Shown one piece after another: positions 41,665-57,440 of a DNA stretch of 64,000 bases. The notes beneath the pieces are model-generated. The model was not told the origin of the DNA. It saw nothing but the letters and a program-made list of their open reading frames with translations, and searched no databases. The stretch covers positions 62,001 through 126,000 of the forward strand of contig JAJGQC010000642.1 of the NCBI GenBank assembly GCA_021014325.1. Reading direction: 5' to 3'. This stretch comes from Plazaster borealis. Lineage: Eukaryota > Echinodermata > Asteroidea > Forcipulatida > Labidiasteridae. The position numbers were made by a program, and so were the translations under genes. The stretch's first letter is position 1. The number at the start of each line of letters is the position of its first letter.

Positions 41665-42680
41665 CGGAGCCCCTAATGGGACATAAAAAAAAAAAAAAAA
41701 AAAAAATTATCTCGTGCGCACGACATATTATCTCGTGCGCACGACATATTATCTCGTGCGCACGACATATTATCTCGTGCGCACGACATATTATCTCGTG
41801 CGCACGACATATTATCTCGTGCGCACGACATATTATCTCGTGCGCACGACTTATTATCTCGTGCGCACGACATATTATCTCGTGCGCACGACATATTATC
41901 TCGTGCGCACGACATATTATCTCGTGCGCACGACATATTATCTCGTGCGCACGACATATTAACTCGTGCGCACGACATATTATCTCGTGCGCACGACATA
42001 TTATCTCGTGCGCACGACATATTATCTCGTGCGCACGACATATTATCTCGTGCGCACGACATATTATCTCGTGCGCACGACATAATTCGGGATTCTTGGA
42101 AGCAGCCCGTCGTCACGCCGCCATTGTTATCGCACACGTGAAACGCACTCACAGCACGGACAACAACAAGGTCAAGGAGATCGATCGAAAGATTGGAAAG
42201 ACAACTGAACTGTTTAAAGAAGCCTAAAGAAGCCTGGATCACCGTGTACTGCGTAAGGTTTTGCCCGGCATAGTTTTGAGTAAGTTAATGTAGTTTTTCT
42301 GTGTTTATTTTCTTTAACATTGTACTTGAAGTTGTAGTCCAGTGTAGTCAATGATTAGATGGAGTTCTCAGACTAGTGTGGTGCAGTGCAGTGCGGTGCA
42401 TGCAGCAGAGTAGAGGGGGCCTGGCGACGCTATAGCGCGGTATACGAGGCCCCTCTGCCTGCCCTGATTTTACAGGCCCCCGGGAGTTGCGACTATTTTT
42501 AATCGCTTTTGTTTGTTTTGGCCTGCTTTCACTTTAAAGTAGAGCTTCACAAAGAGACTAATCTCAGTTGTAAAGAATGTGTTTAGTGATACAGGAATTT
42601 TAGAGGCTATGAAAAGAGTGAAATTTGGCAGATATTGTCATGAAATAGAGAACTTGGCATAGCATAGCGTAAGTACACTC
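41665..42680 (+). repeat. Left long terminal inverted repeat of the 15.8-kb element
   Basis: Order from outside: CGGAGCCCC end, poly-A, 21-bp array, CGTCACGCCGCCATTGTTAT block, GTACTGCGTAAGGTTTTGCC, the GCGACGCTATAGCG block, and CTTCACAAAGAGACTAATCT. All recur inverted at 57440-56525. This arm carries about 55 extra bp (near 42187-42245) relative to the right arm. Confidence 0.9.
41707..42085. repeat. 21-bp tandem array, 18 copies (left)
   Basis: The unit is ATTATCTCGTGCGCACGACAT, i.e. 21 bp built around the 12-bp perfect palindrome TCGTGCGCACGA. Copies are nearly identical; two carry single changes. Because 21 is a multiple of three the array is open in several frames on both strands, giving artificial ISCARH and MSCARDN peptides. 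I do not call these genes. Confidence 0.95.
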
Positions 42681-43186
42681 ACGTGATTAGAATAGCACTT
42701 AGTAGACTACATGAATATAGTATTTTTAGTAGGATAGGATTACAAGTGGCATAAAATAAAATACATACAGCCATGTGCACGAAGGCCCTCCTTTGATTGA
42801 GGAAATGTCACAATCGCTCCATATTTTTTAACACATTTGTGCCTTGGGTTGCTTTGGCTGCATTAATTTGAGGCCAAAATCCACAAGACCACAGGGCATA
42901 TGCATGAGAATATACCTACAAAGTTTAACAATAACATTAATTTCAAGCACTAAAAGGAGATTTATCTCATTTGTATTATGGGTAATGATTCTTCAATACT
43001 CATCAAAAGACCATCAGACTTGTCCAATCATGTGTTTATGGGCCTGCAGTCCAGTGTAAATTATGAGCCATGCTGAATTGAACTGTAAAACTTCAGTGTA
43101 TGCTCCACAATTAGTAGAAGCATTAGGTGATGATGGCACAATTAAACCTGTTTTACAATTCCTTTCTATATTTTGTTATACTGCAG
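42681..43186. other. Between left TIR and first HECT-gene exon
   Basis: Candidate promoter/5' region of the HECT gene. AT-rich; no TATA or other element can be assigned with confidence. Confidence 0.35.
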
Positions 43187-43309
43187 GTTTCAATATGGAT
43201 CTTCTCAAAGAGTTTTTAATGTCACGAAGTATCCCGGAGGAGAACATAAACAAGATGGAAGAAGAAAAGGTAACATCACCGAGCTGTTGTTATAAAGATT
43301 GAATGGAAA

Positions 43310-43690
43310 CCATGAAAGGGGTGGTGGTACATCATCGGTAATTACTCCAAAATGAATTACCGTATAAAAACTTATTTGGTTAGGAGCACTGGACAGCTCT
43401 TGATATTTAAACATTGTGAAAAGTAATGTGAAAGAGATGTTTTTCTCCTAAAAAATTGAATTTGACGTGACGTATCATGCTTGAAACATTGCTCAGACAT
43501 CTGAAAGCGCATGATTCAATGTGCATCAGTGTTTTCCTACTTTACTTCTTTGGATTGATTATTGATTGGGCCAGAATTTTCACAGGATGGTTGGTATTCC
43601 TGTGTTTGATGCAAAATACATGACAACAATAAAAATGAGAATACTGGTGTTTGACAATTACCAAAGATGTGATTCTACTTTGATCAAAGG
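43310..43690. mobile_element. Old TTAA MITE relative (family M, copy 4) in the first HECT intron
   Basis: Diverged but collinear with 32692-33065: CATCGGTAATTACTCCAAAA at the left, AACATTGTGAAAAGTAATGT, then GACATCTGAAAGCGCATGAT, and TGGTGTTTGACAATTACCAA at the right. The flanking TTAA is not preserved. Confidence 0.65.
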
Positions 43691-54644: not shown

Positions 54645-56060
54645 CTAAAATAATCCAGAAATAGACCTTCTGAGTTCCCTGTATAAATTTACCGCCGAAT
54701 CAGAATCTTCTGGGAACTCGAGTCCATTCTCTTTCATGACAGCACAGCACAGTTCATGCACATCTTCATCACAGGGGATCGCCTTCCTGAATCTACATTC
54801 TTCCCTGGCAATTTCAACTCTCTCTGGAAAAACATTGCAAAGTGAATCTGTGGTAGCATACAGTCCTGGCACGAAATACATTATGTTAGGGCGTCCGGAG
54901 GGTACACGAGCATTCCTTGAGGGTCGAATCAGGTGTCGGTTCCAAGTGTTGACAACATCATCAATGTCATTCTGTTGAAAATGAATATGAAAAAAAGAAG
55001 GGAAGACTTGATAAGGTACTGTTATGCTTTTACACTAAAAGTCATGTAGGCTAATCGGTGTGGACAGTCTCCCACTCACTGTTATCCAGAGTGTGCAATA
55101 AAAATCATCATACCCATCTTCAGGAAATTGCAAACACTCATTAAAATCTGAACTTAATAGGTTTATTAAGGAGTTTTTAGAAAGGTCCCAAAGCGTTAAT
55201 TCAAAACATGAATGCCTGCCTACCTGAATAATACTCATAAAACAAAACTGAATTAAGTTGACATCCAAAAAGCCGCCGTTGAAATGACCTTCGTTGAGCA
55301 TATTTAGAAAGAGACTGATCCAATAGTCTGTGCATTCTCTTCTCAAAAATGACCACATGTATTCAATCCTCTGATTGGCGGTACTGGGCCCTGCCATATA
55401 GCTACTGTCAACATCTTCACCAAGGTCATCTATATGTAGAAATCTTTGGATATCTCTCACATGCCCGTTCTCTGTGCCATGGTCACCACGAACAAACTTT
55501 GGGCACCCACCAATCGATTGTACAGCTTCCATGTAGTATCCAGCAATCACCCGTGGATCAGAAGCGGTGAGGTATGCATTCATCCAAATGATCCTTCTAG
55601 AAAAGCCGTCAACACATCCATTTATGCAAATGCCATACCTTCTCAGCTTGTCATAACTGTCAATGTGCCAGATAAAGTTTGGACCTTTGGCATAGTAAGA
55701 ACGACGTAACAACCTCCGCTTCCTCCTTTGGAGATTTCCCTCAGGATCTAGAATGCTAAGAATCAGTCTCACATCTTCTTTCCTGCACTTCAGATTATGT
55801 CCACGGCATTTCTCTGACATCCATCTATATCCATGTAATTTTCCAGAACTTCTTATCTGTTTGTGAATGAATTCAACTATGTCTGCAATACTGCTGTAAT
55901 TTTTCCTTCTGACTAGACCAGCTTCCTTTAAAATCCTTTTCAAGTGGCGTAAAGTTACAATAACACCATGATCTACTGCCAATATTCGGACAATATCTTT
56001 ATACAGCATTCCCATGTTGAAGTACACCTTGATGATCTCATTTCTGTCTTCAGCATCCAT
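54645..56060 (-). CDS. Integrase-type (rve) DDE transposase of the 15.8-kb element
   Basis: Two exons, 56060-55224 and 54971-54645; intron donor GTAGGC, acceptor TTTCAACAG. The ATG at 56060 directly follows a strong acceptor (TTTTTGTCTCTACAG), so a 5' untranslated exon is likely. N-terminal helices with an HTH-like segment (MLYKDIVRIL, VTLRHLKRILKEAGL) precede the catalytic domain: PNFIWHIDSYDKL (first Asp), GCVDGFSRRIIWMN, FVRGDHGTENG (second Asp), and TANQRIEYMWSFLRRE (Glu). The second exon gives VNTWNRHLIRPSRNARVPSG and a short tail. This is the retroviral-integrase-like core found in many uncharacterised animal proteins. No internal stop, so plausibly functional. It should act on the 1-kb TIRs. 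Confidence 0.82.
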
Positions 56061-56524
56061 CTGTAGAGACAAAAACCAGTACAGAGAGAGAGAGAGAGGG
56101 GGTAAAATTACTACAAAGTGTAGCAGTGGCACAACCCCCTTGTTTTGTTTGGTTTAATTTTTTCCTTTTTGCATTGCAAGAAGAAACCAAATGTTTTTGT
56201 TAAGGCAGCAAAAAAGAGAAAATCATTAAAAGCCAAAGTGTATTGTCAGTGAAGCAGTACAAAAACATTCTGAATCGCATCAATTTCATTCAACACAATT
56301 GCAACTAAACCAATTATTCTCACAGAAAACGAACAATTGAATATTGTTTTGATATTTGGCACAGTTTAACCACTGCATAAGGACATTCAAAGTATCTGGG
56401 TGCCTTACCCAAAATTATTAAGGACTAAAAATTCCTTGGGACTGCCACCCCCAAAACTAGGCATGATCTTTTTCTCATTATAATATTAATAATAGTACAC
56501 TATGCACAACACGTGTGTGTGCTT
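56061..56524. other. Upstream region of the transposase
   Basis: Contains the CT-rich acceptor tract at 56062-56100 and probably the 5' exon/promoter nearer the TIR. Nothing more specific seen. Confidence 0.35.
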
Positions 56525-57440
56525 ACTTACTGTACTACGCTTTGCCGCTTTGCCTATATTGCCAAGTCAATGAATATTATGACAATTTCTGCAAAAATTC
56601 ACTCTTTTCATATAGCCTCTGAAATTCATGTATCACTAAACAAATTCTTTATGACTGAGATTAGTCTCTTTGTGAAGCTCTACTTAAAGTGAAAGCAGGC
56701 CAAAACAAACAAAAGCGATTAAAAATAGTCGCAACTCCCGGGGGCCTGTAAAATCAGAGCAGGCAGAGTGGCCTCGTATACCGTGCTATAGCGTCGCCAG
56801 GCCCCCTCTGCTCTGATGCACCGCACTGCACTGCACTACACTAGTCGTAGTAATTAACTCCATCTAATCATGAGGAAGATGATCTAATTGACTACAACTT
56901 CAAGTACAATGTTAAAGAAAATAAACACAGAAAAACTACATTAACTTACTTAAAACTATGCCTGGCAAAACCTTACGCAGTACTTCGATCGATCTCCTGG
57001 ACGCACGCCTCCTGGACCTTGTTGTTGTCTGTGCTGTGTGTGTGTTTCACGTGTGCGATAACAATGGCGGCGTGACGACGGGCTGCTTCAAGACTCCCGA
57101 ATTATGTCGTGCGCACGCGATAATATGTCGTGCGCACGAGATAATTATGTCGTGCGCACGAGATAATATGTCGTGCGCACGAGATAATACGTCGTGCGCA
57201 CGAGATAATATGTCGTGCGCACGAGATAATATGTCGTGCGCACGAGATAATATGTCGTGCGCACGAGATAATATGTCGTGCGCACGAGATAATATGTCGT
57301 GCGCACGAGATAATATGTCGTGCGCACGAGATAATATGTCGTGCGCACGAGATAATATGTCGTGCGCACGAGATAATATGTCGTGCGCACGAGATAATTT
57401 TTTTTTTTTTTTTTTTTTTTATTTGCCTTTAGGGGCTCCG
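56525..57440 (-). repeat. Right long terminal inverted repeat of the 15.8-kb element
   Basis: Inverted counterpart of 41665-42680 with the same block order. Slightly shorter because the array has fewer copies and the 55-bp segment is absent. Confidence 0.9.
57104..57398. repeat. 21-bp tandem array, about 14 copies (right)
   Basis: Unit ATAATATGTCGTGCGCACGAG, the complement of the left unit, with one degenerate inner copy (the first, reading GCGATAATATG) and one spacing variant. Ends in a T-run matching the left A-run. Confidence 0.95.

Follow-up and report, generated by a model that had tools for sequence, protein, structure and literature searches.

The window analyzed here, a 64-kb stretch of the genome of the asteroid Plazaster borealis (contig JAJGQC010000642.1, positions 62,001 to 126,000, forward strand), harbors an element of 15,780 bp at 41663–57442 (window coordinates are used throughout). 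This element is very probably a recently mobile cut-and-paste transposon with two convergent genes, of which one encodes a transposase of the Pfam family rva_4 and the other a predicted ubiquitin ligase with a HECT domain. The original prediction had assigned an integrase-type (rve) transposase and a HECT ubiquitin ligase to one mobile unit, and this assignment is supported by all five full-length copies, which carry both genes between the same terminal inverted repeats (TIRs). In addition, the HECT gene seems to recur as the second gene in several transposon families. The recurrence of the pairing at many loci suggests that the ligase is involved in the life of these elements within the host.

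The five full-length copies in the genome of P. borealis are the window copy and those designated C1, C7, C13, and C429. They are 15,648 to 15,893 bp long and, with gaps left out, 99.7 to 99.9% identical in pairwise comparison. Each of them has both genes and both TIRs and is flanked by a perfect 6-bp direct repeat that differs from copy to copy. Hence, the search for same-genome copies with both TIRs, which had been proposed beforehand, yielded five insertions with different 6-bp duplications. The insertions are recent; many differences between the copies are single-base insertions or deletions and possibly assembly errors. All five agree in their ends, TACGGAGCCCC..GGGGCTCCGTA. On both flanks of the window element lies the perfect 10-bp repeat TACGATGGTA (41655–41664 and 57441–57450), and from this copy by itself a 6-bp and a 10-bp duplication are indistinguishable. 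In the other four copies, 6 bp is the sole perfect repeat length (lengths from 3 to 19 were tried), and their repeats TAATTT, CTCTTC, CCTTCC, and GTTTTG all differ. By comparison of the five copies, the target-site duplication (TSD) is thus 6 bp long and the window element spans 41663–57442; a target duplication of 10 bp is rejected. The window TSD is the inner CGATGG of the 10-bp repeat, at 41657–41662 on the left and, as a perfect match, at 57443–57448 on the right; the outer TA on each side belongs to the flank. Thus, the 10-bp flanking repeat had been noticed correctly and shrinks to 6 bp as a target duplication, and the predicted limits of 41665–57440 were nearly right, with each end lying 2 bp further out.

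The left TIR of about 1.0 kb (41663–42680, plus strand) and the right TIR of about 0.9 kb (56561–57442, minus strand) have approximate inner limits. Aligned with each other, these arms of 1018 and 882 bp are identical at 809 of 866 aligned bases (93.4%), contain several indels, and keep the same block order. The terminal CGGAGCCCC occurs only twice in the window, at 41665–41673 (plus) and 57432–57440 (minus), compared with 0.01 expected occurrences. Hence, the matching termini and the inverted ends of about 1 kb are as predicted. It is conceivable that such a TIR pair reflects an assembly inversion or a segmental duplication instead of a transposon, and a 411-bp direct duplication that is 95% identical (40272–40680 and 58801–59211) indeed brackets the element. 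This repeat, however, lies outside the element ends, and five insertions with different 6-bp duplications contradict such an origin. Moreover, the two window TIRs represent separate real sequences because they differ at 6.6% of aligned bases, by indels, and in the size of their arrays of tandem units (18 units on the left and 14 on the right). An artifact or duplication of this kind is therefore extremely improbable.

The transposase gene consists of two exons on the minus strand. Exon 1 (55224–56060) encodes N-terminal helices followed by a DDE core with D134, D193, and E233, wherein 39 residues separate D193 from E233; exon 2 (54645–54971) contains the stop codon. The protein of 387 residues matches rva_4 (PF24764) with 106.9 bits, which is above the Pfam cut-off and bears out the predicted rve transposase. 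Across 48 aligned sequences the DDE triad is invariant, and an HHCC pattern ahead of the rve core occurs in none of them. A protein search retrieved 716 relatives; those named among the 120 matches listed are mainly from fish, and also from echinoderms, molluscs, beetles, and a frog. Matches to rva_4 number 64 in the host genome (560.6 Mb in 717 contigs) and zero in 14 control genomes, and no relative turned up in viral contigs, which were scanned both with the 21-bp repeat unit of the TIRs and with the transposase alignment. In a fold search, the predicted model of exon 1 matches TnsB, IstA, and retroviral intasomes, which is supportive only since its pTM is 0.48 and the TM-scores are low. 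Judged by the published description of termini, TSD, and the absence of HHCC, the element fits the IS3EU/GingerRoot superfamily.

The HECT gene comprises nine plus-strand exons between 43187 and 51941. Exon 1 (43187–43269) carries the start codon at 43195, right behind a 3' splice site. Exon 2 (43860–44501) encodes an N-terminal module (ELGW..GGGT..FFPNG), and exons 3 (44701–44832) and 4 (45277–45471) follow. The N-lobe of the HECT domain starts in exon 5 (47588–47966, GGPRREFL); exons 6 (48511–48695), 7 (48878–49047), and 8 (50652–50872) come next. Exon 9 (51659–51941) encodes the C-lobe, in which the codon of the presumed catalytic cysteine lies at 51837–51839 (ARTCTNLIKLP). In the window copy, the frame is broken in exons 2 and 5 and in exon 9 upstream of the cysteine. 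The predicted HECT ubiquitin ligase is borne out at the level of the domain: Pfam HECT (PF00632) is matched above the cut-off of 23.9 bits by the window protein and, with 44.6 bits, by the C7 copy, as well as with 28.0 and, barely, 24.0 bits by the related proteins at the loci C558 and C7:7.84 Mb described below. Given this domain and its C-lobe cysteine, ligase activity is predicted. Apart from HECT, the window and C7 proteins have no Pfam match. The HECT part is closest to fish G2E3-like proteins (57 matches with 31 to 48% identity overall), and the first 230 residues match a separate set of animal proteins (eight matches, among them proteins of Ptychodera, Sinanodonta, Misgurnus, Danio, and a beetle). 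Only two open reading frames (ORFs) of at least 150 residues lie in the interior of the element, one being the transposase and the other running antisense to HECT exon 2.

Both ORFs, HECT and transposase, begin directly after a 3' splice site, and the genes converge. A probable promoter with an untranslated leader exon lies at 42085–42290 (plus strand), as suggested by motif positions and CpG content, and ends in a GTAAGT donor. This donor, the GCCGCCAT motif, and a CACGTG motif are each found in both window TIRs, the right TIR containing the matching leader and donor. The ratio of observed to expected CpG is 1.15 to 1.21 in the segment behind the array versus 0.36 in the element interior. Each TIR of about 1 kb hence appears to carry a promoter, a leader exon, and a splice donor, and a promoter and leader common to both TIRs would turn on both the transposase and the HECT gene. 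Outside the five copies with their ten TIRs, the leader recurs with 93 to 96% identity at no fewer than 30 places (40 of 76 candidates were scored). Thirty such places, L050 included, are short elements with an inverted piece of the leader start alongside each. L050 was not accepted as a simple deletion derivative; it has one clear TIR of 813 bp and no second intact end.

The pairing of the two genes was followed across the genome with one HECT protein (P0185), whose 56 matches were merged to 36 HECT-type clusters, and with the rva_4 matches merged to 48 clusters, using a pairing distance of 20 kb. Twenty-seven of the 36 HECT-type clusters lie near an rva_4 match, and 25 of the 36 are convergent to one. 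In 2000 random placements (with assumed sizes for several contigs and C7 confined to a stretch of 4–15.5 Mb), convergent pairs averaged 0.57 with a maximum of 5. The number of independent families is below 25 because some pairs resemble duplicates, for example those at 8.15 and 8.24 Mb of C7. Clusters matching in the HECT part amount to 21 of the 36, and 17 of these are convergent to rva_4. One stretch of C7 (about 7.8–15 Mb) accounts for 22 of the 48 rva_4 and 15 of the 36 HECT-type clusters. At C20:906380–918841, ten consecutive rva_4 fragments are spaced about 1,368 bp apart, as though part of a transposase had turned into a satellite.

Around rva_4 loci, nine 20-kb regions were examined, of which four hold the further copies of the window family. 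In three of the five others (C558, C7:7.84 Mb, and C7:8.15 Mb), a HECT homologue is convergent to the transposase. C7:10.43 Mb has only an N-terminal piece of HECT, 14 kb away. The tandem locus C7:11.36 Mb shows no HECT in its 20-kb region and a weak match to the N-terminal module (28 bits) just outside. At the short locus L024, no HECT is present in 9.5 kb, and the genome search locates one roughly 16 kb away from the transposase. Element ends were searched exhaustively around both genes, requiring TA..TA termini and a 6-bp duplication, with the C1 copy as positive control. The search gave single hits for C558 (8,721 bp, ends matching at 19 of 20 positions, TSD ATATAT) and C7:7.84 Mb (10,437 bp, 20 of 20, TSD GAAATG). 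Controls with scrambled left flanks, 20 per region, gave 0.05 to 0.2 hits on average and at best 14 of 20. The end pair at C7:8.15 Mb (best 13 of 20) is no better than these controls and was not accepted, and this search found no end pair at C7:10.43 Mb or C7:11.36 Mb. The transposases of C558 and C7:7.84 Mb share 49 to 51% identity with that of the window and 53% with one another; by blastn, the two elements show no similarity to the window element. The window, C558, and C7:7.84 Mb families have in common the two-gene anatomy, the TA..TA ends, the 6-bp TSD, and arrays of 21-bp near-palindromes of the form TA-N3-CG-N6-CG-N3-TA, whose interiors are specific to each family. The original prediction had regarded the ligase as a passenger. 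With convergence at 25 of 36 loci, the gene looks less like a one-off passenger than like a second gene that recurs in several families.

Several observations weigh against this assessment. The HECT frame is open from end to end in only one of the five copies, that is C7, where it spans 762 residues from the first Met. It is broken in the window, C1, C13, and C429 copies, and the break in exon 9 ahead of the cysteine is common to these four. The ligase may therefore be dispensable, or the breaks may be assembly errors; many frame differences are private to single copies. The transposase frame is open in three of the five copies (window, C7, and C13), so that C7 has both genes open, with 762 and 387 residues, respectively. 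Across the genome, no HECT match lies within 20 kb of 22 of the 48 rva_4 clusters, and no rva_4 match within that distance of 9 of the 36 HECT-type clusters. Fifteen of the 36 match solely in the N-terminal module; eight of these are convergent, the five window-family copies included. Furthermore, the element and its genes were analyzed at the level of sequence, and its place in IS3EU/GingerRoot is assigned by termini, TSD length, and the absence of HHCC. The broken frames and the rva_4 clusters without HECT are what one would see if the HECT gene were a host gene captured by chance and carried without function for the element. Against such a capture stand the convergent pairing at 25 of 36 HECT-type loci, its presence in families whose transposases are 49 to 53% identical and whose elements have no blastn similarity to that of the window, and the open HECT stretch of 642 codons, cysteine motif included, kept by C558. 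A chance passenger is therefore quite unlikely, and the ligase probably has some role for the element.

A further feature of these elements is the arrays in their subterminal regions. The left array of the window element (41706–42084, plus strand) consists of 18 units of 21 bp, each with the near-palindrome TATCTCGTGCGCACGACATA, and the right array (57103–57398, minus strand) of 14 units of this length, as delimited by Tandem Repeats Finder (TRF). A near-palindrome of 20 bp forms the basis of the 21-bp unit. In C558 and C7:7.84 Mb, both ends likewise bear arrays with a 21-bp period, and their near-palindromes differ in sequence from those of the window family. Tandem palindromic units are also present in 12 of 30 short loci (L007, L008, L010, L011, L018–L022, L024, L026, and L027) and in none of 150 single-base shuffles. 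L027 has a period of 23 bp, and L009 shows a weak array of 1.9 copies in TRF only. The other 17 loci have no array in view, with about 1 kb upstream of the transposase visible and some loci lacking a full transposase. Eleven of the 12 array loci include units with the skeleton TA-N3-CG-N6-CG-N3-TA, which was defined post hoc from the same units, and the interiors fall into five clearly different types. Such preserved anchor bases with interiors rewritten per family are expected if transposase specificity and array change together. In our reading, the units are candidate binding sites for dimers, spaced two helical turns apart.

On this basis, a mechanism can be proposed. Transposase dimers would bind the arrays of 20-bp near-palindromes and build a synaptic complex, and the transposase would cut at the TA ends and insert with a 6-bp stagger. 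The ligase may then ubiquitinate the transposase complex after strand transfer, contributing to its disassembly or to dose control; alternatively, it may ubiquitinate a host silencing or repair factor. Either way, transposition would succeed without overly damaging the host. That the target is indeed the transposase complex or such a host factor is put forward tentatively. With similar reserve, animal IS3EU elements may be viewed as two-component systems with a conserved HECT partner, in which both components are tied to the near-palindrome arrays and the ligase would remove or remodel the array-bound transpososome or degrade a host factor reading the CpG-rich arrays. By analogy to fungal IS3EU elements bearing an alpha-kinase and a TET/JBP dioxygenase, the gene slot may instead hold varied tools against the host, and the ligase would then serve persistence in the host, as anti-defense or selfish-retention cargo, and not the transposition reaction. 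We consider this somewhat unlikely.

Further features lie within and next to the element. A palindromic insert resembling a miniature inverted-repeat transposable element is nested at 53443–53900 and related to the repeats at 8712–9087 and 9489–9900 of the window. A 254-bp direct repeat (52146–52394 and 53106–53357) is 93% identical. RAG1-N-like fragments are located beside the element at 59859–59443 and 59284–58904, and possibly at 40271–37667, all on the minus strand (Pfam RAG1_imp_bd 3.5e-12; PDB RAG1 4.7e-8; RING part weak, E 0.4); the 411-bp flank duplication overlaps this RAG1-N-like gene. The fragments recall the N-RAG-TP element of Aplysia (PMC8355894). At 597–5500, a YqaJ recombinase-like ORF (plus) faces a DDE_Tnp_4 transposase (minus). 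We take this pair to be the make-up of an ISL2EU element. Finally, an ORF of 787 residues at 23130–25493 (minus) has no Pfam match at E 0.01.

Proteins annotated as "G2E3-like" HECT and "integrase core" are recorded in many animals as separate and mostly uncharacterized. In P. borealis, a substantial part of either kind represents one half of a transposon (25 of 36 HECT-type loci and 26 of 48 rva_4 clusters), an origin that matters for annotation and for counts of the HECT gene family. The near-identical copies, one of them open in both genes, allow a possible regulation of transposition by ubiquitination to be tested directly, and the arrays specific to each family provide a ready test of transposase–DNA recognition.

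Among known systems, G2E3 orthologues contain PHD/RING zinc fingers before the HECT domain, whereas neither the window nor the C7 protein has a PHD/RING match in Pfam. The HECT half aligns with fish G2E3-like proteins (at best 37 to 41% identity over about half of the protein) and keeps the catalytic TC motif, but the window protein bears another N-terminal module. A fish study (PMC5638112) lists G2E3 matches among unclassified candidate repeats, which fits transposon-borne HECT genes. As to the superfamily, the portion of PMC10045372 consulted describes IS3EU/GingerRoot by TA..TA ends, a 6-bp TSD, and an rve-type DDE transposase without HHCC whose first D lies 100 to 300 residues from the N terminus. 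The window family resembles it in all these marks (TA..TA in all five copies, 6-bp TSD, no HHCC, first D at 134), and C558 and C7:7.84 Mb likewise have TA..TA ends and a 6-bp TSD, though the search required both. In contrast, HECT and ubiquitin are absent from the main text of PMC10045372, and the same portion mentions no 21-bp palindromic arrays. The matches listed from the open-licence literature include no description of an IS3EU element with a HECT gene, Repbase lying outside this search.

DNA transposons with an enzyme of a ubiquitin-like pathway exist in plants as ULP1-carrying Mutator-like elements; these, however, encode a SUMO protease and not a ligase, and their transposase belongs to another superfamily. 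A parallel in architecture is offered by the TET-carrying IS3EU elements of rust fungi, for which PMC12730594 describes TAYGG..CCRTA ends, a 6-bp TSD, an alpha-kinase gene facing the transposase, and a TET/JBP dioxygenase. The window family (TACGG..CCGTA) and C7:7.84 Mb conform to these ends, while C558 with TATCAGCGGG does not. HECT and ubiquitin are absent from the main text of PMC12730594. Conversely, no TET/JBP or alpha-kinase was seen here, as the spliced genes match nothing beyond rva_4, HECT, and, below the cut-off, Clr5, a further spliced gene not having been sought separately. In both the fungal and the sea star elements, an accessory enzyme gene faces the transposase, and the fungal alpha-kinase and TET/JBP genes demonstrate that IS3EU carries accessory enzymes.

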